From Granulimonas faecalis (GTDB taxonomy: Bacteria; Actinomycetota; Coriobacteriia; Coriobacteriales; Atopobiaceae): DNA of 64,000 nt. The stretch covers positions 1,772,501 through 1,836,500 of the forward strand of contig NZ_BQKC01000001.1 of the NCBI RefSeq assembly GCF_022834715.1, given 5' to 3'. Within the stretch, counting starts at the first letter, position 1, and every line of letters begins with the position of its first letter. The notes below the pieces were generated by a model that worked only from the letters and a program-made list of their open reading frames with translations, ran no database searches and was not told the DNA's origin. Shown here piece after piece: positions 7,803 to 38,748 of this stretch. Both the position numbers and the translations under genes were made by a program.

Positions 7803-9776
7803 TCAACGGGCCGCCCACTGAGGGAAACCGGTGCCCCCAAAGCGCCGCTCCTGGCCGCGGGCCTTCTGTGGGGAGTCGGCCTCCACCACAAGGCGAGTGC
7901 TGTCCAGCCCGGACAGCGCCTGCAGGCGCGCATCGTGGTCGCGAGCCTCCTTGAGCACGGAGACGGCGTCGCGCCGGTCTGCCAGACGGCACACCGAGCC
8001 CAGCAGCATTGCGGCCTCCCTGGCCGGCGCGCTCCTCGAGAGCACCAGGGCAAAGACGGCGTTCACCTGATGTGCCCCCCATGAGACAGGCTCTGGGAGC
8101 AGGACGCAGGCCAGCGAGGTCTGATGGACGGTCGCGCGGGGCGCATAGACGCACGCCACGCCGTTGCCGTAGTACATCCGCTCCTCGCCCTGGGTATCGA
8201 GCAGGCTCATGCAGAGCGCGGGGTCCCTGTCCACCAGGTCCAAAAGGGCGAGAAGGTCGCACAGGGCGCCGTGGGCGTTGGTGGCTTTGCACGCGCCGTC
8301 GAAACGCTGCTTGGGAAAGACCTTGGCCAGCATGCCGTAGCTGGCAATGGAGCGCTTTGCCCGACGCACGCACAAAAGGTCGTCGTCGCTCATGTAATGG
8401 CCCACCCTGATGACGGGTACCGGCATCGAGGGATTGCGCTCCTCGGTGGAAAGGATGTAGGAGAGGCGGGAAAGGTCGCAGTTCTTGAGGCGGCCGTCAG
8501 CCCATCCCGAGAAGCAGGTCACCTCGCTGCCAAGCTCCGAAGCGATCCTGTCGGCCAAAAAGTCGCGGGACGCCTCCCCCAGAGAGGAGACGAGCCCCAC
8601 CGGGGTCGGCCCGGTGCTATGGGACCGCCGGGCCAGGGCCCGGGCAAAAATAAAGGCGATGCTCCCGCACTCGCCATCGGGGATCTCCCGGCCGGAACGC
8701 GACTCGATGATCCGGCAGGTCTCGTTTGCAAGGACGTAGGAGAAAGGGAGGAACTCGCGCACCCCCTTGATCGGCTCGAGCCGGGCAGGGGTCTTGTACA
8801 GCATGCGCAAGAAGAGGAGGCGCAGGTGGTTTGCCGCCACCTCGTGAAGCCCCTCGTCGCTTGAGAGGTCGCACCTGAAGGTTCTGTCCAGGCTCTCTAT
8901 GAGCTGGGTGGCCAAAACGTCGGTGGTACCTCCCATGGGCTCGTCGAGGTCGCACCAAAAGGCCAGGTGCATAACTACGAAGGCGCACTCGTTGAGGTCG
9001 ACGGTGTGGCTGAGCACGCTCCTGATGGTGGAGCGCAGCGCGGAGCTCATCGTCGTGAAGCGAGGAAGCGTGAGAAAGCGGCCGAGTTCTTTGGGAAGCT
9101 CCAGGGAAGGCTCGAGGCCCGAGCGAAGGATCACGAGGGAGAGGCTCAGGATGAAGTCCCTGCGCGCCACTTCGGAGGCGGCGATGCCCACCACGCGAAA
9201 GAATGCGTCGGCGCAGGCGTTCAAGGGCCTGGAGTCGAGGCCCACGATGTTGAGGTAGCGTTCGAGGCCGCAGCGGGAGGCCACGGCGGCGCTCTCCAGA
9301 CAGAGCCGCTTGCTGAACTCCGGCCCCTCGATACGAGAGCCTTTCGCGGAGTTCCTCGCCAAGCGAAGCCCAAATTCCGAGCAGACAGCCGCCACGTCCT
9401 TGAGCAGGGCCGTTATCGTCGAACTTGAGACGAACAGCTCCGAGCGGATGTCTTTTGACTTGACCCACCGGCCGTCGCCCATGAGCTTGGCCAGCGCATA
9501 GAGCAGGCGGCTCTCCGAGTCTTGGTACACGCCGGGCTCGCCGCGCTTCGCCTGTTCCAACCTCCGCTCAAAAGCGGCGGGGTTGGAACAGCTCACCTGG
9601 TAGTCCCCACCGCGACGCTTACTCACCTTGGCAATGCCCGCAAACTCCGCATTGGCTGCCTTCACATAGGTGCGCACCGTACGCTCGCATACATCCATAT
9701 ACTCCATAACAGCCGTCATGGAGGCTCCGTCGCGACGGTAGATGTATTCCATAAATGAAGAGATTGTTTGGTCCAC
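7803..9776 (-). CDS. PTS-regulation-domain transcriptional regulator (BglG/MtlR/Mga-like)
   Basis: A 657-residue regulator of the multi-domain BglG/ManR/MtlR type. Residues 1-60 hold a first HTH (ASMTAVMEYMDVCERTVRTYVK). About 85-150 hold a second (WVKSKDIRSELFVSSSTITA), with the usual K..GSRIEGPEF continuation. The middle has PRD-like helical blocks (NECAFVVMHLAFWCDL). An EIIB-like block follows (VGLVSSLGEASRDFLADRIA), then a C-terminal EIIA-like block (GNGVACVYAPRATVHQTSL). The EIIA block lacks the usual G-P-H histidine context, so phosphorylation control may be degenerate. The GTG start at 9776 has AAAGGAGA. It follows the surface-protein gene on the same strand but behind a strong terminator. 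The target could be that gene or the PTS operon beyond it. Confidence 0.8.
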   Translation of the reverse strand: MDQTISSFMEYIYRRDGASMTAVMEYMDVCERTVRTYVKAANAEFAGIAKVSKRRGGDYQVSCSNPAAFERRLEQAKRGEPGVYQDSESRLLYALAKLMGDGRWVKSKDIRSELFVSSSTITALLKDVAAVCSEFGLRLARNSAKGSRIEGPEFSKRLCLESAAVASRCGLERYLNIVGLDSRPLNACADAFFRVVGIAASEVARRDFILSLSLVILRSGLEPSLELPKELGRFLTLPRFTTMSSALRSTIRSVLSHTVDLNECAFVVMHLAFWCDLDEPMGGTTDVLATQLIESLDRTFRCDLSSDEGLHEVAANHLRLLFLRMLYKTPARLEPIKGVREFLPFSYVLANETCRIIESRSGREIPDGECGSIAFIFARALARRSHSTGPTPVGLVSSLGEASRDFLADRIASELGSEVTCFSGWADGRLKNCDLSRLSYILSTEERNPSMPVPVIRVGHYMSDDDLLCVRRAKRSIASYGMLAKVFPKQRFDGACKATNAHGALCDLLALLDLVDRDPALCMSLLDTQGEERMYYGNGVACVYAPRATVHQTSLACVLLPEPVSWGAHQVNAVFALVLSRSAPAREAAMLLGSVCRLADRRDAVSVLKEARDHDARLQALSGLDSTRLVVEADSPQKARGQERRFGGTGFPQWAAR

Positions 9777-25962: not shown

Positions 25963-26154
25963 TTACTGGCGGTTGCGGAAGAAGTAGTACCAGGCGGCAT
26001 AGCAGACGCCCAGCACCACCGCCACCGGCAGGAGCCACCGCACGATGATGAACACGCCGCGGAAGAACAGGTTCACAAAAAACAGGATGATGATGACCGC
26101 CAGGCAGCCAAAGCCGCAGCCAGTGGCGTTGTCGCCGGTGAAGCGTGGGGGCAT
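25963..26154 (-). CDS. Membrane microprotein, 63 residues
   Basis: Two hydrophobic segments (GCLAVIIILFFVNLFFRGVF and LLPVAVVLGVCYAAWYYFF) and a short FRNRQ tail. A very strong AAGGAGGAG precedes ATG 26154. It lies 61 bp after the JetD-like/mIHF fusion gene on the same strand and may share its transcript. No family assignment. Confidence 0.75.
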   Translation of the reverse strand: MPPRFTGDNATGCGFGCLAVIIILFFVNLFFRGVFIIVRWLLPVAVVLGVCYAAWYYFFRNRQ

Positions 26155-26215: not shown

Positions 26216-28618
26216 CTACTCCCCCGTAACGGCCTCGACAACGCGCGCCCGCTGCTTCTTGCCGAGCCCGCGCAGGGTGCGGCCGGCACTGATGCCGACC
26301 TCCTCCATGAAGGCCGTGGCACGGGCGCGATCCCAGCCGGGCAGCGCCGAGAGGAACCGCACCACGGTGAGGGAGCGGGCGGCATCGTCCACGGCGTCGA
26401 GCACGTCCGCGGGCGACACGGCACCGGACTTGATGTTGGCGAGCAGGTCGCTGCGAAGCTTGCGGGTCTGGGCGGCCCTGGAGACGGGCTTGACCTCGGC
26501 AGGCGCGGGCTCCGGGGTCGCGGGCGCCTCGGGGGCGGCGTCGGCGGGCGCAGCGGCCTCGGAGGCGGCGTCGTCGTCGGCGGGCGCAGCGGCGGCATTG
26601 GGCGCGGCGGCGCCGCCGGCGACCTCGGGCTGGGCCGCCTTGGGCTTGCGGGAGCGACGGCGGCGGCGCGGCTTGGGGGCGTCGGTCTCGGGGGCCGGCG
26701 CCTCGGCGTCGGGCCGGTCGGCCGCAGGCTCGGGAGCGTCCTCGGGCTTGGGCACCTGGCCGGCCTCGGCTGCGGCATCGGCTACAGCTTCAGGCTGCTC
26801 GGCGGCCTTCTCGGCAGCGGCCTTGGACCGGGTGCTGCGGCGGCGACGCCCGGCTCGGCCGGGGCGCACGTCCTTCTGCTCCGGCTCCGCATCCTGCTCG
26901 GCGGACCGGGCGTCGCCGCCCTCGGCCTCCGCCTCGGGGGCGGGGGCATCCTCGGGCGTGGTCTCGGGTGTGGAGACCTGCCCCTCGGGAGCGTCGGCGT
27001 CGGCCGCGGGCTGCTCGGCGTCCGCCGCCTCCGCGACCTGTCCCTCCGTGTCCTGCCCCTCGGCGGCCCGTTCCTCCGCGGCCTGCCCCTCGGCGCCCTG
27101 CTCGGCCTTGGGCCTGCGGGAGCGGCGGCGACGGCGCGGCTTGGGGGCGTCGGCCTTCTCGGCGGGCGCGGCGTCCGCAGGCGCCTCCGCCCCGACGGCG
27201 GCCTCGGGCTCGGCGGGCTCAACCTTGGGTGCGGCCTCGGCCTTGGAGACCTGCTGCGAAGACTGCTGGGCGCCCTGGCCGTCGGCGGCCTGCTGCCTGC
27301 GCTGACCGCGCGAGTGCTGGCTCTGCTTGCGGTAGGTGCCCTCGCGGCGCTTGCCGTCGTCCTGCTGCCCCTCGCCCTGGCCGCCGCGGCCGGCGGGGAG
27401 GGCCGCCATGGCGGAGTCCACGTCGTAGTCGCTGAAGAGGTCCAGCGCCACGATCTCCTGCTCGAGCTTCACGTTGCGCTCGAGCATGTAGGAGACGAGG
27501 CCGCGGTAGCGCTCGTACTCCAGGAGCTGGGCCAGGAGGTCGCGGTCCTTGGACGTGAGCGGGTGGATGGCCTTGCGGTAGGCCGGGTTCGCCAGCTCGG
27601 CGATGCCCATGTGGAAGAGGCCCACCTCGCAGCCGAGGGTGTCCTCGATGACCTTGTGGGCCTTGAGGCCGGCGTAGTCGATGTCGCCAAAGTGCGCGAA
27701 CTCCACCTCGGGGTTCTGCTCGTGGATCATGCGCAGGAGCGCCCGGTGGCGCGGCGACACGGAACCCTGGGTGTAGATGTAGACGTCGTCGTCGTTGCAG
27801 CGGCGGTAGGCGTCGAGGTTCTCCACCGTGACGATGCGGCGGGCGCGCACGTAGGCGCGGTCGATGTTGGCGAGGTCGGCGTCGAACATCGAGATGCCAT
27901 TGGGCAGGATCGAGGCGTCGACGGCGCCCTTCTGGGTGATGAGCACCACGGGACCCTTGACGCAGATGGTCTTGAGGTCGGCCACGACGCCGGCCTCCTC
28001 CAGCGCTCCCACGTTGGAACGGCTGGCGCTGGAGCCGCGGCGGCGCAGGGTCTGGGCCACGCGCTTGAGGCCCACGCGGTCGAGCTTCTTGGTGTCGCCG
28101 GTGACGAGCAGCGAGAGCTCGCGCGGGGTGAGGGGCGAGTCTACCTCGTCGAGGTACTCGGCGGCCTCCTCGGTGATGCGCGGGTCCACAGGATCCGATG
28201 TGCGGCGGCGACCGTGTCGCTGCGCGTGGGTCTGACCGCCCTGGGACTGGGCCTGCCGCTTGCGGGCGACGGCCTCCTCGGCCCGGGCCTGCTCGGCCTC
28301 CTCCTGGGCCACGCGGGCAGCGAGCTTCTCGAGCTCGTGGGCTGCCTTGTCGGCGTCCTCCAGGGTGACGGTGTCCACGTAGGTGCCCCCGTCGTGCTTG
28401 GACTTGGTCATGCGCACCATGCGCTGGCTCTCCAGCGACTGCACGGCCGAGAAGATCCACTGGGCCTGCTTGCGGGAGGCCTCGTCGTCGTGCTCGAGGT
28501 AGGAAGGTAGGATGTCGGACGGGACCAGGGTGGGCGGCTCGTCGGCGGGGGCGGCCCCGTCGAAGGCGGCACAGAGCCTCTCGAGCAGCTGGTACTTGAA
28601 CGTGTCGGTGGGTTTCAA
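26216..28618 (-). CDS. JetD-like Toprim protein fused to an mIHF-like DNA-binding domain
   Basis: An 800-residue protein. Residues 1-95 look like a winged-helix/JetD N-terminal region, followed by a charged coiled segment (95-125). About 150-395 match the JetD C-terminal (DUF2220) Toprim nuclease domain of Wadjet: VENLDAY (E266), YTQGSVSPRHRALL, HFGDIDYAGLK (D312, D314) and FHMGIAEL. About 400-705 is a low-complexity Ala/Glu/Pro tail with basic clusters such as PKPRRRRRSRRPK. The last ~90 residues resemble actinobacterial integration host factor: IKSGAVSPADVLDA, FLSALPGWDRARA, FMEEVGISAGR and LRGLGKKQRARV. The TTG start has GGAGGT 6 bp upstream. JetA, JetB and JetC are absent within the window. 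Probably a DNA-structure-sensing nuclease or a nucleoid protein; activity is untested. Confidence 0.8.
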   Translation of the reverse strand: MKPTDTFKYQLLERLCAAFDGAAPADEPPTLVPSDILPSYLEHDDEASRKQAQWIFSAVQSLESQRMVRMTKSKHDGGTYVDTVTLEDADKAAHELEKLAARVAQEEAEQARAEEAVARKRQAQSQGGQTHAQRHGRRRTSDPVDPRITEEAAEYLDEVDSPLTPRELSLLVTGDTKKLDRVGLKRVAQTLRRRGSSASRSNVGALEEAGVVADLKTICVKGPVVLITQKGAVDASILPNGISMFDADLANIDRAYVRARRIVTVENLDAYRRCNDDDVYIYTQGSVSPRHRALLRMIHEQNPEVEFAHFGDIDYAGLKAHKVIEDTLGCEVGLFHMGIAELANPAYRKAIHPLTSKDRDLLAQLLEYERYRGLVSYMLERNVKLEQEIVALDLFSDYDVDSAMAALPAGRGGQGEGQQDDGKRREGTYRKQSQHSRGQRRQQAADGQGAQQSSQQVSKAEAAPKVEPAEPEAAVGAEAPADAAPAEKADAPKPRRRRRSRRPKAEQGAEGQAAEERAAEGQDTEGQVAEAADAEQPAADADAPEGQVSTPETTPEDAPAPEAEAEGGDARSAEQDAEPEQKDVRPGRAGRRRRSTRSKAAAEKAAEQPEAVADAAAEAGQVPKPEDAPEPAADRPDAEAPAPETDAPKPRRRRRSRKPKAAQPEVAGGAAAPNAAAAPADDDAASEAAAPADAAPEAPATPEPAPAEVKPVSRAAQTRKLRSDLLANIKSGAVSPADVLDAVDDAARSLTVVRFLSALPGWDRARATAFMEEVGISAGRTLRGLGKKQRARVVEAVTGE

Positions 28619-28818
28619 GGAGCGACCTCCAAGCCGCGGGAACGTGCGATGGGAGCCCGGCGGCGTGGAGCCATGGGCCTGTCAAGTGTATATCGCCCGT
28701 GTGGTGGGATTGTTTCTCGGGACTCCCCGAGGGTCCAAGGGGCCGCTTGCAGCCGGGATGGCCCGACCGCTGCCGGCTGCCGGCGCCGGCTTCCCGCTGC
28801 CCCTGCCAACCCGTCGCA

Positions 28819-28920
28819 GCCGTTTGGTACTTTTCGGTATGAAAACTCATCTAAACCACCAAATGGGGTGCCGTTTGGTGGTTTTCCGCCCCAGTACCGA
28901 GGAAAAACCACCAAACGGTT
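28819..28920. repeat. Left ~100-bp structured repeat of the bracketed element
   Basis: Begins GCCGTTTGGTACTTTTCGGT, then a hairpin of AACCACCAAAT against GTTTGGTGGTT, then AAAAACCACCAAACGG. Its first ~70 bp are repeated in inverted orientation at the right end (30108-30177). The 28619-28818 stretch before it shows no gene. Confidence 0.85.
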
Positions 28921-29003: not shown

Positions 29004-30020
29004 ATGGGCACCGTGTTTGGCGGCCTGATGGCGAGGGCGTTTTGGACCCTTGGAATCCCGCTCAACCCCCTCTCCCCTTCCCAGACCAGCCTCGCCATGG
29101 CCCGGAGCCGCTGTTCCGCACGAGAGATCAAGCGATTCAGAGAGACCCCCGTCCACGCCGCCGTCGAGGGGTTCCTGCGCGCCGCCGCTGAGACCCACGG
29201 CCCCGCGGAAGGCCCCGAGCCGGCCGTGGACGTGGTGGTGGACACCCCCGCCAAGATCCATCGCGCGAAGGGGGTCCGCTGCCTCTGCTCGACCCTGGAC
29301 CCTCCCGCGGGGAGCCTTGCCGAGGTGGGCGGCTGCGAGGCCGTGTGCTCCCTCACGCCCGCCCAGCACTTCGTGGTGCGCGCACGCGACCTCGACCCGG
29401 TGGGATGTTGCCTGCTCGCCATGGAGCTGTGCGGCACCTACCTGCTGCGCCCGGACCTCCCGGCGGGATTCGCCACACTCCCGGAGCCCCTCGTCTCGGT
29501 GGTGGACCTCGCGCGCCAGACGGGGCGCAACCGGGGGATGCCGGGGGCGCGCCGGGCCCTCGAGGCCCTGACCCACACCTGCGACGGAAGCGCCTCGCCC
29601 ATGGAGACCGCCGTCGTCCTCCTGCTCGTGCTGCCGCCGGAACTCGGGGGCCACGGGCTCCCGCTACCCCGGCTCAACGAGGAGGTCCCGATATCGTCGG
29701 CGTCCTCCCGGCTGCTGGGCGGCACCCGGACCGTGCGCCCCGACATCCTATGGCCCGACGCCGGGCTCGACCTGGAGTACGACAGCCGCTCCTTCCACAC
29801 CCAGCACGACGCCGACCGCGATCGGGCCCGGCGGAGCGCCCTCCAGACCGCGGGCATCGAGCCTCTCTCGCTGACCCCGCAGATCGTGGGGAACGCCGCC
29901 GCCTTCGACGAGGTGGCCCGCCTCGTGGCCCGGCGCCTCTCCATGGCGGCCGAGACCCCCGACCCCCAGGCCCAGGCACAGCTCCGCCAGAGGCTCCTCG
30001 GGACCCACCCGGTCTGGTAG
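29004..30020 (+). CDS. PD-(D/E)XK/DUF559-like protein with AbiEi-like context
   Basis: A 338-residue protein. The C-terminal third resembles the DUF559/Vsr-like nuclease fold: E201 in an N-terminal helix, then RPDILWPDAGLDLEYDSRSF (D247, E258, D260), H265, a D/R-rich helix and a G-I-E-P-L-S-L-T strand, matching the D-(E)-x-D pattern of PD-(D/E)XK proteins. The catalytic Lys is not obvious. The N-terminal part (1-180) may correspond to the AbiEi-type antitoxin-like region described for related actinobacterial proteins, but I am unsure. CAGGGAG precedes ATG 29004. It is the only gene inside a pair of inverted ~100-bp repeats, suggesting a mobile or repeat-linked unit. No adjacent AbiEii-type toxin is present. 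Confidence 0.65.
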   Translation: MGTVFGGLMARAFWTLGIPLNPLSPSQTSLAMARSRCSAREIKRFRETPVHAAVEGFLRAAAETHGPAEGPEPAVDVVVDTPAKIHRAKGVRCLCSTLDPPAGSLAEVGGCEAVCSLTPAQHFVVRARDLDPVGCCLLAMELCGTYLLRPDLPAGFATLPEPLVSVVDLARQTGRNRGMPGARRALEALTHTCDGSASPMETAVVLLLVLPPELGGHGLPLPRLNEEVPISSASSRLLGGTRTVRPDILWPDAGLDLEYDSRSFHTQHDADRDRARRSALQTAGIEPLSLTPQIVGNAAAFDEVARLVARRLSMAAETPDPQAQAQLRQRLLGTHPVW

Positions 30021-30077: not shown

Positions 30078-30177
30078 GCCGTTTGGTACTTTTCGGCCGT
30101 CGACGGAGGAAAAACCACCAAACGGCGCCCCATTTGGTGGTTTAGATCAAATTATATACCGAAAAGTACCAAACGGC
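30078..30177. repeat. Right ~100-bp structured repeat, inverted copy
   Basis: Ends ACCGAAAAGTACCAAACGGC, the exact complement of the left copy's start. Its reverse complement follows the left copy through the TCTAAACCACCAAATGGGG hairpin for about 70 bp with few differences. It begins with its own GCCGTTTGGTAC motif, so the short motif occurs at both of its ends. Confidence 0.85.
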
Positions 30178-30252: not shown

Positions 30253-31206
30253 CTACAGCAGGCCGGACCTCTGCGCGCCGTGGTAGGCCGCGCCCACCAT
30301 ACCGGCAAGGTTGCCCAGGGACGCCGGGCGGATGGGGATGTCCCGGCACGTGCGGATGACCGTGTCGCGGTAGGCGTCCTCCACGAGCGGCCCAAAGAGG
30401 TCGAACGCCGCGCTCATGCCGCCGCCCACCACAAATGCGTCGGGGTCGAGGGTGCACGCGACCATGGCCAGCGCGCGCCCGAGGTAGCGGGCGTACTCGT
30501 CCAGGGCCTCCACGGCCACGTCGTCGCCGTGGCGGGCGGCCTCGAACACCGGCAGCGAGTGGGCGTCGTGCTCCAGCTCCACCGGCACCTGGCCGTGGCG
30601 GGCGCAGGCGTCGCGGTAAAGGTGCACCAGGCCGCGGGCGCTCGTGTACATCTCCAGGCAGCCGCGGTTGCCGCAGCCGCACAGACGGCCTCCGGGCACC
30701 ACGGGCAGATGGCCGATCTCGCCGGTGCCGCCGCGGCCCACGACGACCTTGCCGTCGACCACGATACCTCCGCCCACGCCGGTGCCCAGGGTCACGAACA
30801 CGAGGTTGCGCGCCCCCTGGCCGCTGCCGCGCCAGAGCTCCCCCAGCGCGGCGGCGTTGGCGTCGTTCATCGGGTACACCGGCACGCCGAAGGCCTCGGC
30901 CAAGGCGTCCACGAGCCCCTCGAGGTTCACCTGCACGTTGGGGGCCAGGAGCAGCTCGTCCTCCGGGGTGACCACGCCGGGCAGGGCCAGGCCCACGGCG
31001 GCGATGTAGGCGTCGTCGCCGGCAAAGCCCTCGGCCATGGCGCGCACCTTCCCGGCGGCCGACGCCAGCTCCCCGGGCGTCTGCATCGACTCGGTGCGCA
31101 CGGCGGAGAAGTCCGCCACGTCGCCGTCCATGGTGACCAGCGCCACCTTGACCGTGGTGCCGCCCACGTCGATGCCCACCAGGTACGGGACCTTCTCGGA
31201 AGCCAT
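30253..31206 (-). CDS. glcK: ROK family glucokinase
   Basis: A 317-residue cytoplasmic sugar kinase of the ROK family. Visible: phosphate-1 loop GIDVGGTTVKVALV at the N-terminus, PNVQVNLEGL, catalytic-region MNDANAAALGELW, GTGVGGGIV, and the zinc-binding CGCGNRGCLE motif. These fit ATP-dependent phosphorylation of glucose. ATG 31206 (MASEKVPYL) is preferred; the longer frame to 31287 runs back toward ddl. It is the last gene of a minus-strand group with the aminotransferase and the Ddl-like ligase. It could also act on another hexose, as ROK kinases vary. Confidence 0.88.
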   Translation of the reverse strand: MASEKVPYLVGIDVGGTTVKVALVTMDGDVADFSAVRTESMQTPGELASAAGKVRAMAEGFAGDDAYIAAVGLALPGVVTPEDELLLAPNVQVNLEGLVDALAEAFGVPVYPMNDANAAALGELWRGSGQGARNLVFVTLGTGVGGGIVVDGKVVVGRGGTGEIGHLPVVPGGRLCGCGNRGCLEMYTSARGLVHLYRDACARHGQVPVELEHDAHSLPVFEAARHGDDVAVEALDEYARYLGRALAMVACTLDPDAFVVGGGMSAAFDLFGPLVEDAYRDTVIRTCRDIPIRPASLGNLAGMVGAAYHGAQRSGLL

Positions 31207-31293
31207 GGCTCTCCCTCTCTCCCCTCGCGCCCGGCCGGGCCGAGAAACGAATGGGGTCGCCGGCCCTCCTCCGGCGACCCCGTCCACATACAG

Positions 31294-32286
31294 CTAGCAG
31301 CCTCGCGCGTAGGCCTGCTCGACCATGGAGTCGAGCAGCTCGGGCAGGGCGATCCCGGCGGCCTCCAGGGCCGTGGGCACGAGCGAGGTCTCGGTGAGGC
31401 CGGGGAAGACCTTGAGGTCGAGAACCCGGGGCGCGGCGCCGTCCCACACCATGTCCACGCGGGCCATGTCGCGGCAGCCGAAGGCGCGGTAGACCTCGAT
31501 GGCGGCGCGCTCGCAGGTGCTGCGGATGGACGCGGCCTCCTGCCCGTCGGGCGACAGCGACTCCGGGCGCACCGGGCAGAAGTAGCTCACGGCCTGCGGG
31601 TCCAGGCGGGCATCGGTGTCGTACACGCCCTCGGCCACGATCTCCACGGGCGGCAGCACCTCCTCGTCGCCGGGGTCGCCGATCACCGTGACGGACAGCT
31701 CCACGCCGTCCACCCACTCCTGCACGAGCACCGTGTCGTCGAAGGCCAGTGCGCCCATGAGGGCCTCGCCCAGGCCGTCGGCGGACTCCACCTTGGAGAG
31801 GCCCATGGCCGAGCCGCCGCAGGCCGGCTTCACGGCCAGCGGGAACCCGCCCACGCGCTCGGGCATGAGGTCGAGGGCCTCCGCGGCGCCAAGGTTGCGG
31901 AACGCCCCCTCGGGCAGCGCCACCTGGGCGGGCCAGCGCACCACGGAGTCCTCCGGGGCGTAGGCGCGGGCCATGACGAAGGGCAGCTCGGCCTTGTTCC
32001 AGGTGTTGCGGCACACCGGGGGCAGCGAGCCCACGAAGGGGATGTCCAGGAAGGTGAGCAGCGACGGCACGGCGCCATCCTCGCCGCCGGCGCCGTGGAG
32101 GGCGACGAAGGCCACGTCGGGGCGCTCGGTGCGCAGGGTGTCCACGAGGTTCTCGTCGGCGTCGAGGGCCAGCACCTTGTGGCCGCGGGCCTCGAGGGCT
32201 TCGACCACGTGCTTGCCGCTGGCCAGCGAGAAGCGGCGCTCGAAGGAGGAGCCGCCCATGATGACGGCAACGGTTGGCTTGTCCAT
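31294..32286 (-). CDS. ddl: D-alanine-D-alanine ligase-like ATP-grasp protein
   Basis: A 330-residue ATP-grasp enzyme of the Ddl family, which joins two D-alanines for peptidoglycan. The N-terminal MGGSSFERRFSLASGKH keeps the Glu of the usual ERE-SL motif; ARVD and PGLTETSLVP are present near the C-terminus. Two sites are unusual. The ATP loop is PACGGSAMGLSKV rather than REGSSVG. The metal-binding E-x-N before PG is D-L-K (VLDLKVFPGLT), so Asn is replaced by Lys. It may be a divergent Ddl or a paralogue with another carboxylate-amine substrate. It starts 3 bp after the aminotransferase stop, so the two are coupled. Confidence 0.75.
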   Translation of the reverse strand: MDKPTVAVIMGGSSFERRFSLASGKHVVEALEARGHKVLALDADENLVDTLRTERPDVAFVALHGAGGEDGAVPSLLTFLDIPFVGSLPPVCRNTWNKAELPFVMARAYAPEDSVVRWPAQVALPEGAFRNLGAAEALDLMPERVGGFPLAVKPACGGSAMGLSKVESADGLGEALMGALAFDDTVLVQEWVDGVELSVTVIGDPGDEEVLPPVEIVAEGVYDTDARLDPQAVSYFCPVRPESLSPDGQEAASIRSTCERAAIEVYRAFGCRDMARVDMVWDGAAPRVLDLKVFPGLTETSLVPTALEAAGIALPELLDSMVEQAYARGC

Positions 32287-32289
32287 GGC

Positions 32290-33561
32290 TCACATCCCTT
32301 TCCTGGGGGTCTCGGGCAGCGCGCCCGCCTTGAGGAAGGCGCGGTAGAGCTCCATGCGGTCGGCGATGACCTCCGAGAGGCGCCGGATGCCCTCGCGGAT
32401 CTTGTCCTCCGGCTCGTAGGAGAAGGCCAGGCGCATGGAGGAGCGGCCCTGGCCGTCGGGGAAGCAGTTGGTGCCGGGCACGTAGGCCACGCCGTTCTCC
32501 AGGGCCGCCGACATCATCTGCTCGGTGTCGAAGTACGGGGGCAGCGTGACGTAGACGAACAGGCCGCCCTCGGGGTGGGTCCAGGTGGCCTCGGGCGGGA
32601 AGAACTCCTCCAAGGCCGAGATCATGGCGTCGCGGCGGCTCCGGTAGATGGCGCGCGACTTGACCAGGGTGCCCTTCCAGTCCGTGTTGGTGAAGTACTG
32701 CTCGGCGAGGATCTGGTTGAAGGCGCTGCAGCAGAGGCTCGCGCCCTGCTCGCAGAGGTTGATCTTGGCCAGCACCGGCTTGGGCGCCACGCACCAGGCC
32801 AGACGGAGCCCCGGGGCGAAGATCTTGGACGTGGTGCCGAGGTAGATGACGTTGGGGTCCATGGACTTGAGGGGGGCGATGTGCTCCCCCTCGAAGCGCA
32901 GGCGCCCGTAGGGGTCGTCCTCGATGACCTGGATGTCGTACTCGTGGGCGAGCTCCAGGAGGCGCTTTCGGCGCTCGAGCGTCATGGTCACGCCGGCCGG
33001 GTTCTGGAAGTTGGGGATGGTGTAGATGAACTTGGCGCCGCGGGGCCCGAGGCGCTTCAGAGTCTCCTCGAGGGCGTCCATGCGCATGCCCTCGTCGTCC
33101 ATGGGCACGACCTCGACGTCGGGCTGGTAGGCGGAGAAGGCCTGGAGGGCGCCGAGGTAGCTGGGGCCCTCCACGATGATCTTGTCGCCTGGGTTGATGA
33201 AGACGCGGCCCATGAAGTCCAGGGCCTGCTGGGAGCCACCGGTGATGATGATCTCGTCGGGGTCCACGTGGATGCCGTCCTCGGCCAGCATGCCGGCCAC
33301 CATGGCGCGGGTCTCGATGCGGCCGTCGGACCCGCCGTACTGCAGCGACTTGAGGCCGTTCTCGGTCACCACGCGCTTGGCGCACTCCGCCACCTCGTCG
33401 AGGGGCAGGCTCGAGATGTCGGGGCTGCCGCCGGACAGGCCGATGACGTTGGGGCGGGATATGGCTGCGAACAGGTCTCGCACGGCGCTGCGGCGGAGAT
33501 GCTCCACGCGGTCGGCGTAGAGGTCCTCCCATTCGTCGAAGACAAGGTGAGAGCTAGGCAT
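32290..33561 (-). CDS. PLP-dependent aminotransferase, class I/II (2-aminoadipate/LysN-like)
   Basis: A 423-residue fold-type I aminotransferase without a GntR domain, most like the aromatic/2-aminoadipate group. Visible: SGGSPDISSLPLDEV at the N-terminus, GGSQQALDF, FIYTIPNFQNPAGV, the Asp of VIEDDPYG and the PLP Lys in GTTSKIFAPGLRLAW. AGGAGCCC precedes ATG 33561. Directly upstream of ddl; a role in amino-acid supply for the wall is possible but not shown. Substrate cannot be fixed from sequence. Confidence 0.83.
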   Translation of the reverse strand: MPSSHLVFDEWEDLYADRVEHLRRSAVRDLFAAISRPNVIGLSGGSPDISSLPLDEVAECAKRVVTENGLKSLQYGGSDGRIETRAMVAGMLAEDGIHVDPDEIIITGGSQQALDFMGRVFINPGDKIIVEGPSYLGALQAFSAYQPDVEVVPMDDEGMRMDALEETLKRLGPRGAKFIYTIPNFQNPAGVTMTLERRKRLLELAHEYDIQVIEDDPYGRLRFEGEHIAPLKSMDPNVIYLGTTSKIFAPGLRLAWCVAPKPVLAKINLCEQGASLCCSAFNQILAEQYFTNTDWKGTLVKSRAIYRSRRDAMISALEEFFPPEATWTHPEGGLFVYVTLPPYFDTEQMMSAALENGVAYVPGTNCFPDGQGRSSMRLAFSYEPEDKIREGIRRLSEVIADRMELYRAFLKAGALPETPRKGM

Positions 33562-33667
33562 AGGGCTCCTTTCCGATTGTTTTAGCCTATCACGGCGCCC
33601 GTGGCGCGAACCGACCGTCGCCCAAGGGGCACAATGGCCAAAGACACCCCGACGAACAGGAGCCCCC

Positions 33668-35191
33668 ATGGCAAGCCGCGACCTCGAACAAGCCCTCTCT
33701 TCCATCGACGCCATGGAGGCGCGCCGCTACGCCCTGCGCTACGCGCTCGTGAGCGCCGAATGGCTGGCCGAGACCGCCGACCCCGAGAAGGCCGCCCCCG
33801 GCCGCGGCGAGGCGGTGGCGGGCCTGGAGGAGATGGACCGCGAGGTGCTCTGCGGCGCCGAGATGGGCGCGGCCCTGGACGTGTTGGAGGCCCACCGCGA
33901 AGGGCTGGGCCTCAAGGACGCCGCGCGCCTGCGCGTGCTGGGGCGCGACCGTTCCGAGCAGACGCGCATCCCCAACGAGCTGGCCGGCGCCATGAGCCGC
34001 GCCGTCAACGACGCCACCATGGCCTGGCGCCGCGCCAAGCGGGACAACGACTGGGGCGTGTTCGCGCCGCACCTGGACGCCGTGGTGGCGCTGTGCCGCC
34101 GCCAGGCCGCCTGCCTCGACCCGGGCCGCGACCCCTACGACGTACTGCTCGACCTCTACGAGCCCGGCTGCGACCAGGCCTTCTACGACCGGTTCTTCGA
34201 GCGTGTGCGCGCCTGCGTGGTGCCGCTCGCGGAGCGGGTGGCCGCGGCGCCGCAGCCGTCGCGCGCCTGCGTGGCCGGGGCGTTCGATCCCGATCGGCAG
34301 TGGGCGCTGGCCCGCGACCTCGCCCTCTTCGAGGGCGTGGACCCCGAGAAGCTCGTGATGGGGCGCACCGAGCACCCCTTCTCCGACGGCATCGACTCCG
34401 GCCACGTGTTCATCGCCACCCACATCTACGAGGACGACGTGCTCTCCAACGTGTTCTCCGTGCTCCACGAGGGCGGCCACGCCATGTACGAGGCCGGCGT
34501 GGACCCGGAGTTCGACCGCACGTGCCTGGCCGGCGGCACCTCCATGGGCATGCACGAGGCCCAGAGCCGCTTCTTCGAGAACTACGTGGGCCGCTCCCGC
34601 GCCTTCGCGGGGCCGCTGCTGGCCGCCATGGCGTCGCACTTCCCCGAGAAGCTGGAGGGCGTCACCGCCGGGGACCTCTACCGCGCCGAGAACCGCGTGG
34701 AGCCGAGCCTCGTGCGCACCGAGGCCGACGAGCTCACCTACCCACTCCACGTGATGGTGCGCTACGAGGTGGAGAAGGGGCTCCTCTCCGGCGAGCTCGC
34801 CGCCGCCGACGTGCCCGCGGCCTGGGGCCGGCTCTACCGGGAGTACCTGGGCGTGGAGGTGCCCGACGACCGTCGCGGCGCCCTGCAGGACATCCACTGG
34901 TCCCAGGCGTCCATCGGGTACTTCCCCACCTACGCCTTGGGCGGCGCCTACGGCGCACAGCTGCTGCACGCCATGACGGCGGACCTAGCGGCCGGGGGCA
35001 CGCCCTTTGACGACGTGCTGGCCTCGGGCGACCTCGTGCCGGTGCGCGCCTGGCTGGGCGACCGCGTGTGGCGCTGGGGCCGCTCCAAGGAGCCGAGGCG
35101 GATCGTGGAGGAGGCCTGCGGCGAGGAGTTCGACCCGGACTATTACTGCGACTACCTGGAGCGCAAGTTCGGCGAGCTGTACGGGCTGTAG
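33668..35191 (+). CDS. M32 family carboxypeptidase (thermostable carboxypeptidase Taq-like)
   Basis: A 507-residue zinc metallopeptidase. The active-site motif is HEGGHAMYE (HExxH) with the third ligand in HEAQSRFFENYVGRS about 30 residues later; LYEPGCD near the middle and YFPTYALGGAYGAQL near the C-terminus are family hallmarks. The M32 family releases C-terminal amino acids from peptides in the cytoplasm. AGGAGCCCCC precedes ATG 33668. Divergent from the aminotransferase operon with 106 bp between, and followed at 46 bp by dtd. Complements peptide uptake by the Opp system elsewhere in the window. Confidence 0.9.
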   Translation: MASRDLEQALSSIDAMEARRYALRYALVSAEWLAETADPEKAAPGRGEAVAGLEEMDREVLCGAEMGAALDVLEAHREGLGLKDAARLRVLGRDRSEQTRIPNELAGAMSRAVNDATMAWRRAKRDNDWGVFAPHLDAVVALCRRQAACLDPGRDPYDVLLDLYEPGCDQAFYDRFFERVRACVVPLAERVAAAPQPSRACVAGAFDPDRQWALARDLALFEGVDPEKLVMGRTEHPFSDGIDSGHVFIATHIYEDDVLSNVFSVLHEGGHAMYEAGVDPEFDRTCLAGGTSMGMHEAQSRFFENYVGRSRAFAGPLLAAMASHFPEKLEGVTAGDLYRAENRVEPSLVRTEADELTYPLHVMVRYEVEKGLLSGELAAADVPAAWGRLYREYLGVEVPDDRRGALQDIHWSQASIGYFPTYALGGAYGAQLLHAMTADLAAGGTPFDDVLASGDLVPVRAWLGDRVWRWGRSKEPRRIVEEACGEEFDPDYYCDYLERKFGELYGL

Positions 35192-35237
35192 GGAGACAAG
35201 GTACCAGGTTGGTTTGTCACGGCAGAAAGGAAGCGGC

Positions 35238-35684
35238 ATGAGAGCGTTGCTGCAGCGGGTAACCGAGGCGTCAGTTGCCGTGGACGGCGAGGTCGTAGGT
35301 GCCATCGGAGGCGGATTCTGCATCCTTCTGGGCGTGGGGCCGCATGACGACGAGACCGTGGCCCGCAAGCTCTGGGACAAGATCTGCCATCTGCGCATCT
35401 TTGACGACGGGGCCGGCCACATGAACCTCTCGCTTGTGGACGTGGGCGGGCAGGCCCTCATCGTGAGTCAGTTCACGCTGTATGCCAACGCGCGAAGGGG
35501 GCGTCGGCCCAGCTTCACCGAGGCGGCACCCCCAGACCTGGCACGCGACCTCTACGAGCGGTTTTGCAAGATCGCAGCGGAGGACGTGCCCGTGGCCACC
35601 GGCATCTTCGCCGCAGAGATGCAGGTGTCGCTGGTGAACGACGGGCCCATCACCGTCTGGCTGGACACCGACGAGCTGTTCTAG
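35238..35684 (+). CDS. dtd: D-aminoacyl-tRNA deacylase
   Basis: A 148-residue DTD-family enzyme that removes D-amino acids from tRNAs, proofreading translation. Diagnostic motifs: MRALLQRVTEASV at the N-terminus, SQFTLYANARRGRRPSF (SQxTL), and NDGPITVWLDT (the Gly-cisPro loop). Normal length. AAAGGAAG precedes ATG 35238. It follows the M32 carboxypeptidase gene on the same strand and is followed by the first TTTTGTCCCA-type repeat. Confidence 0.95.
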   Translation: MRALLQRVTEASVAVDGEVVGAIGGGFCILLGVGPHDDETVARKLWDKICHLRIFDDGAGHMNLSLVDVGGQALIVSQFTLYANARRGRRPSFTEAAPPDLARDLYERFCKIAAEDVPVATGIFAAEMQVSLVNDGPITVWLDTDELF

Positions 35685-35693
35685 CCGCCGGTG

Positions 35694-35826
35694 CCGTCCC
35701 ACCGGCTGTCCCACTCGTCGGACACTTTTGTCCCAATGGTCGGGCACTTTTGTCCCAGCCGGCTCCGGGCGGGCGGTCACATCAACCGATTAATGGGCGA
35801 AGTGACAGATGGGCCAGACACCGCTG
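35694..35826. repeat. TTTTGTCCCA-type repeat, copy R1
   Basis: Two nearby versions of GTCGGACACTTTTGTCCCA, then a variable GC-rich joint, then the segment containing ATCAACCGATTAATGGGCGA and GGCGAAGTGACAGATGGGCC. It lies in direct orientation with R2 (38446-38748) on the other side of the two-component system. Confidence 0.85.
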
Positions 35827-38445: not shown

Positions 38446-38748
38446 GGGGCCGTCCCAATGGTCGGACACTTTTGTCCCAGCCGGCCGCGGAGGCTTGGAG
38501 CGAGAGGCGCGGGAGCGCCGCCCGCAGAAGCTTCTGCGGGCGGTTCGGCGGCCGGAGGGCACCCGCAGGACGTCCTGCGGGTGTTTGCGTACCCGTAGAA
38601 CGTTCCACGGGTGCCGAGGGGCCGCTCCCGCCTCGCCCGCCGCTGCCGCCACTCCAGCTGCGCCCGCCTGGGGCCGGCCCCAGGCGGGCGGTCACATCAA
38701 CCGATTAATGGGCGAAGCGACAGATGGTCCAGGCACCGCTGTCACGCC
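38446..38748. repeat. TTTTGTCCCA-type repeat, copy R2
   Basis: Shares GGTCGGACACTTTTGTCCCA and ATCAACCGATTAATGGGCGA with R1 in the same orientation, but its middle is expanded by four hairpins (38518-38690). No gene is apparent in this 323-bp gap. Confidence 0.85.
38518..38690. repeat. Row of four palindromes inside R2
   Basis: Perfect palindromes at 38518-38543 (arms CCGCCCGCAGAAG), 38560-38583 (CACCCGCAGGAC) and 38661-38690 (CGCCCGCCTGGGGCC), plus a near-perfect one at 38591-38612 (ACCCGTAGAAC). All share CCCG near the arm start but have different centres. Confidence 0.8.

Follow-up and report, generated by a model that had tools for sequence, protein, structure and literature searches.

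How the JetD nuclease of Wadjet is switched on is an open question; according to the current proposal, JetABC brings it together with DNA that is sharply bent. On its own, JetD has low and unspecific activity, needs artificially high concentrations to cut, and is probably held in an autoinhibited state up to the point where JetABC acts (PMC10586767). Its homologue MksG cuts DNA without MksBEF (PMC10123090). The DNA bound by JetD is bent by about 95–100 degrees, and cleavage has been proposed to take place once bending is sufficient (PMC13040014). The nucleoid protein mIHF bends DNA by 58–80 degrees with no sequence specificity (PMC3724605). The H2TH domain of Top6B supports engagement of bent DNA.

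The gene described here, from a genome of the Atopobiaceae, brings a JetD-type nuclease and an IHF domain together. Its nuclease half resembles the JetD of type I Wadjet and MksG, as exemplified by the Butyrivibrio pCY360 JetD (BPR_RS17240): PADLOC PDLC00526 is the top match for both proteins, both have the acidic Toprim residues and the LEQE motif, and the two are 26% identical over the aligned length. Unlike type I Wadjet, however, the fusion comes without JetA and JetB, carries a linker and an IHF domain C-terminally, and is paired with a membrane microprotein where Wadjet has its motor genes. The C-terminal part is like the actinobacterial IHF proteins (sIHF, SCO1480; mIHF, Rv1388) in sequence, scoring above the NCBIfam cut-off, and in its predicted fold, which is that of DNA-bound sIHF, but it is joined to a nuclease and has LPGWD for LPGxG. 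With topoisomerase VI the likeness is a works-like analogy, in that the Toprim is related to Top6A and the H2TH-type domain resembles that of Top6B; the fusion has no GHKL ATPase or transducer, its domains sit on one chain via a low-complexity linker, and strand passage is not expected.

JetD half, linker and IHF domain in a single gene

The window analysed is a stretch of 64 kb (bases 1,772,501–1,836,500 of a 2.08 Mb contig, in an assembly of 2.23 Mb), with the following features:

26216..28618 (-), JetD-mIHF fusion gene: ORF of 800 aa with TTG start, family matches, syntenic orthologues in G002 and G060 (two species of a second genus)
27404..28618 (-), JetD half, residues 1–405 (N-terminal/CAP-like part and Toprim): PADLOC JetD1, alignment with the Butyrivibrio Wadjet JetD
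27437..27955 (-), Toprim core, residues 222–394: PF09983, columns invariant with Bacillota JetDs, dN/dS 0.12, topoisomerase VI-A profile match
26504..27403 (-), low-complexity linker with Arg clusters, residues 406–705: composition, internal repeat, no confident structure
26219..26503 (-), actinobacterial IHF (S13-like H2TH) domain, residues 706–800, pI 10.5: NCBIfam, PDB sequence match, model
28619..28637 (-), 5' leader with Shine-Dalgarno, GCGGCTTGGAGGTCGCTCC ahead of the start codon: conserved in the second genus
25963..26154 (-), 63-aa membrane microprotein, second gene of the cassette: homologue after the fusion in G002 and G060
30253..35684 (.), conserved context block ROK kinase – ddl-like ligase – aminotransferase – M32 peptidase – Dtd, outside the cassette: core in eight genera

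An earlier note on this DNA had proposed a JetD-like Toprim core, and profile searches recovered it, with Pfam JetD_C (PF09983) matching residues 222–394 (E 4.6e-11, 42.8 bits vs. a cut-off of 22) and PADLOC JetD1 matching residues 31–392 (E 1.3e-57). The note's range of residues 150–395 thus held as a match but was too narrow as an extent, since the span of the JetD1 model indicates that the N-terminal half of JetD is also present. Residues E266, D312 and D314 and the LEQE motif at 385–388 (E386, E388) are intact, and invariant in the alignment with Bacillota JetDs. MksG has counterparts of the acidic Toprim residues in E236 and D279, as well as the conserved Glu pair, and the equivalent residues in MksG and JetD bind metal or are the proposed nucleophiles (PMC10123090). 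Judged by these acidic residues and the Glu pair, the fusion belongs to the JetD/MksG nuclease family. The best PDB sequence match of a profile of four JetDs is topoisomerase VI-A (Top6A, 1d3y; E 1.2e-5). The Pfam scan of the fusion protein detected no ATPase family, and thus no GHKL ATPase (Top6B), and the Pfam and PADLOC scans detected no ABC-type ATPase before the Toprim, unlike in the Gabija GajA and OLD nucleases.

The mIHF-like C-terminus suspected in the same note is likewise supported: NCBIfam actino_IHF matches residues 713–797 (E 2.2e-18, 66.6 bits, above the cut-off of 60), the Pfam S13-like H2TH family matches residues 743–795 (E 2.1e-10), and PDB entries 4itq and 6tob are matched by sequence. 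The full-length AlphaFold model built from the single sequence was of low confidence (pLDDT 45) and was set aside as too poor, so that only a model of the IHF domain was used (residues 706–800, single sequence; pLDDT 82). In Foldseek, the best match of this model was the DNA-bound sIHF structure 6bek (6bek_D; TMq 0.82, rmsd 1.4), followed by 4itq and then by mIHF 6tob, with a next tier (E 0.14 and worse) in which ribosomal S13-type chains are mixed with Top6B H2TH chains (E 0.19, TMq about 0.52), including the 2026 Top6–minicircle complex 9o0g. This model suggests that the fused domain has the sIHF/mIHF fold, here as the C-terminal domain of an 800-residue protein and not as a free-standing nucleoid protein of ~100 residues. 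The LPGxG signature of the genome's two free copies is lost in the fused domain, and its DNA binding may differ for this reason; the R..xGLG loop is kept. A canonical standalone mIHF is retained upstream of gmk, and three mIHF-type domains occur in each of G000 (the present genome), G002 and G060, as against one in most Coriobacteriia. The second standalone mIHF is found at about 9173–9484 of locus L012 (contig C2), after a DNase-like gene and Type I-C cas genes, the latter being a cas5-cas8-cas7 set (L012:4524-7797) behind an ArdC gene.

Between the two domains, residues 406–705 correspond to the ~300-residue low-complexity segment with Arg clusters that had been noticed from the sequence (27% Ala, 12% Glu, 12% Pro, and three such clusters), and hold two near-identical KPRRRRRSRxPK motifs as an internal repeat. 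A GGAGGT ribosome site lies upstream of the TTG start, which is supported by a 5' leader that is nearly identical between the two genera despite high synonymous divergence; as start codon, one genus has TTG and the other GTG. Promoter and terminator scans added nothing. Overall, these results confirm a full JetD nuclease half, a linker and a true actinobacterial IHF domain in one gene, and the outcomes that the earlier note had named as contrary (no Toprim/DUF2220 match, no IHF match, or a JetABC operon nearby) did not occur. No paper describing a JetD-IHF layout was found in the open-access literature searched, where the architecture is, as far as found, new; the earlier note, too, knew of no such system.

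A conserved two-gene cassette without JetA and JetB

The membrane microprotein noted 61 bp past the fusion stop was located there, preceded by AAGGAGGAG, and comprises 63 residues with two hydrophobic stretches. Its counterpart in the relatives has 59 residues, occupies the same position and is 29–32% identical (tblastn E 0.002–0.008). This conservation behind the fusion makes the unit a two-gene cassette of fusion and microprotein. Searching the 140 Atopobiaceae genomes with a two-sequence profile of the microprotein gave no other clear small-protein match, the remaining weak matches sitting inside much longer frames; since the profile was built from the same sequences, its strong matches in the three genomes arise by construction, and it is the lack of others that counts.

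Clear relatives of the fusion were present in 3 of the 140 Atopobiaceae genomes, i.e., its own, G002 and G060. The G002 and G060 proteins are 717 residues long, with the same domain order and 64% identity overall to the 800-aa protein, and the Toprim is 91% identical among the fusions over the columns used for the tree. No further carriers turned up among 119 genomes scanned for the class and 396 scanned for the phylum (the latter with a JetD alignment), and no relative in scans of genome contigs (with the fusion protein and a three-sequence alignment) or of phage sequences, while plasmids gave two distant Wadjet JetDs only and viral contigs one weak fragment. The cassette is thus known from two Atopobiaceae genera only, in the genomes scanned. 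A contig chimera or sequencing artefact is ruled out by the independent assemblies of another genus.

Evolutionarily, constraint within the fusion is highest on the Toprim, which is under strong purifying selection, with a dN/dS of 0.12 compared to 0.36 for the IHF part (neighbours: ddl 0.19, aminotransferase 0.08). The linker is barely alignable between genera (300 vs. 190 residues) and differs in its number of Arg clusters.

The survey of neighbouring genes in Coriobacteriia that the earlier note had suggested shows the fusion to be syntenic in another genus, with the microprotein conserved alongside. The cassette sits on the ROK side of the context block, the core of which, formed by ROK, the ddl-like ligase and the aminotransferase, occurs in eight genera as against two for the cassette; the M32 peptidase follows this core in most genomes, and Dtd often. 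Neither fusion nor microprotein was found in any of the seven other block loci read. In G104 (the next closest ddl copy, 79%), the place beside ROK is occupied by a gene that looks chloride-channel-like by eye. Between fusion and ROK, the window has an unrelated gene (29004–30020) that the relatives lack at this place; it is bracketed by the repeat GAGGAAAAACCACCAAACGG (28883–28918 and 30090–30125) and may be an inserted unit. Convergent with the cassette in the second genus is a gene (L015:6686-7957, +) whose product has three matches of the XRE helix-turn-helix type and, between them, Arg-rich low-complexity sequence similar in kind to that of the fusion. Two repeat families were also seen in the window. 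A dispersed palindrome of about 42 nt, CGCCTGAAAGCG...CGCTTTCAGGCG, occurs at 455, 18639, 18961, 20798, 25794, 60800 and 61031, and in none of four other stretches of the same genome or two of relatives. Repeats with CACTTTTGTCCCA (GTCGGACACTTTTGTCCCA) lie at 35708–35768 and 38452–38490, with several copies in L011 and none in the relatives' stretches checked.

The absence of JetABC claimed from the sequence was sustained as far as the search reached, which was the JetA (PF11855) and JetB (PF13835) families: neither was detected in any of the three carrier genomes, with a C. glutamicum control positive in both searches. Nor does a Jet operon flank the fusion, and no JetC or SMC gene was recognised in the flanks read. 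With JetA and JetB missing from three genomes, a remote JetABC is unlikely. The same genome has a second orphan JetD 90 kb away (L011:9173-10576, +; DUF3322 and JetD_C), around which no Jet genes were recognised, and whose C-terminal stretch gives a sub-threshold match to the ribbon-helix-helix protein NikA (E 6.6e-4, 20.2 bits, cut-off 27).

A JetD_C match of some kind was obtained in 101 of 348 Coriobacteriia genomes. Weak PF09983 matches were considered as orthologues and rejected, those examined being of a JetD3-like lineage, without IHF and at a different locus. This lone JetD3-like family is common in Atopobiaceae and Coriobacteriaceae (20 loci, L046–L065), with housekeeping neighbours (TsaE-like, PcrA/rpsL-rpsG-fusA-like, CstA-like) and no conserved partner within 7 kb in the loci examined. 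Like the fusion, these proteins have a JetD-type Toprim, often an Arg-rich region, and no Jet operon in the loci examined; unlike it, they are of the JetD type III lineage, with many placing the Arg-rich low-complexity region before the Toprim, and their locations are unrelated. Together with the second JetD, they suggest a recurrent theme in the class, of orphan JetDs that have gained charged or DNA-binding parts. In a tree of JetD Toprims, where some joins involve long branches, the three fusions group with Butyrivibrio (99/85) and then with Cohnella (97/88), apart from the other Coriobacteriia JetDs, and the Butyrivibrio and Cohnella JetDs lie in complete Bacillota type I Wadjet operons. 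The simplest reading is a single acquisition of a Bacillota-type JetD in a putative ancestor of both genera, after which JetABC was lost or absent and JetD was fused to an IHF copy.

A proposed bend supplied in cis, and rival readings

Taken with the anatomy of the fusion, the published data on JetD, MksG, mIHF and Top6B suggest that the bend is supplied in cis by the IHF domain. We thus propose that the fusion may be an orphan JetD-type endonuclease in which the loop-extruding JetABC motor has been exchanged for a DNA-bending domain of its own, and which would act independently of JetABC; from the sequence evidence, we give this a probability of about one half. The JetD half would dimerise through its Toprim, as expected from its relatives, and the dimer would make double-strand cuts where DNA is sharply bent. 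Wadjet would obtain this bend from JetABC, after the whole plasmid has been reeled in. In the fusion dimer, two IHF domains on long, flexible, Arg-rich tethers could bind the DNA arms flanking the Toprim groove, where they would either impose a bend or capture DNA already bent, so that DNA shape would gate a nuclease that has no motor. As targets, supercoiled plasmids, other foreign DNA (e.g., phage) or strongly bent chromosomal sites are likely, and the microprotein probably anchors or restrains the nuclease. A role in defence is not suggested by the housekeeping neighbourhood; its stability argues for a fixed cellular role, yet is compatible with defence. It is tempting to take the topoisomerase VI analogy further and see here a motor-free, single-chain counterpart of that architecture (a Top6A-like cutter with an H2TH-type bender), in which a nucleoid domain replaces the SMC motor as shape sensor and JetD is active in vivo without JetABC, although this is a tentative extension that we hold to be somewhat doubtful.

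The microprotein invites a different reading, in which the two genes form a toxin-like effector pair following abortive infection or toxin-antitoxin logic, with the microprotein holding the nuclease inactive until phage or plasmid entry, or acting as a holin-like effector. It has been kept behind the nuclease in two genera, with no separate gene elsewhere in the 140 Atopobiaceae genomes, and has a weak match to a PHROG membrane 'moron' (E 0.03). That match is near chance, however, two hydrophobic segments are unlike a typical antitoxin, and the cassette holds a stable position by a housekeeping block and not in a defence island, so that we consider such a pair rather unlikely. A domesticated nucleoid protein, which would organise the DNA of the chromosome while cleaving it little, if at all, and whose Toprim half would mainly serve as dimerisation and DNA-groove scaffold, would fit the IHF domain, the long flexible linker, the housekeeping neighbours and the number of mIHF-type domains in carrier genomes. 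It is an unlikely explanation given that E266, D312, D314 and LEQE show no change between the genera or in comparison to Wadjet JetDs, and that selection is strongest on the Toprim.

Alternatively, the fusion might have remained an SMC-triggered nuclease, with Smc-ScpAB or some unrecognised motor like JetABC as its docking partner, as its retained N-terminal JetD region and an absence search confined to JetA and JetB would allow; the lack of JetA and JetB families in three genomes (one assembled as a single contig, and with a positive control) and of any recognised SMC gene nearby makes this improbable. Finally, the closest outside relatives being JetDs of complete Bacillota type I Wadjet operons, the gene could be what was left when a Wadjet operon decayed, having become part of a fusion by drift. 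This is very improbable, as genera whose synonymous sites are heavily diverged have both kept the open reading frame, the leader, the two domains and the second gene, and the dN/dS values of 0.12–0.36 contradict decay.

As an orphan endonuclease with its own bending domain, the fusion would show that an actinobacterial lineage has fixed in its chromosome a nuclease of the plasmid-defence type, and would be a natural case in which nucleoid proteins are linked to DNA cleavage. A natural JetD with a bending domain and without the motor would also separate the bend from the motor, and thereby make the bent-DNA proposal for JetD activation testable in one protein.
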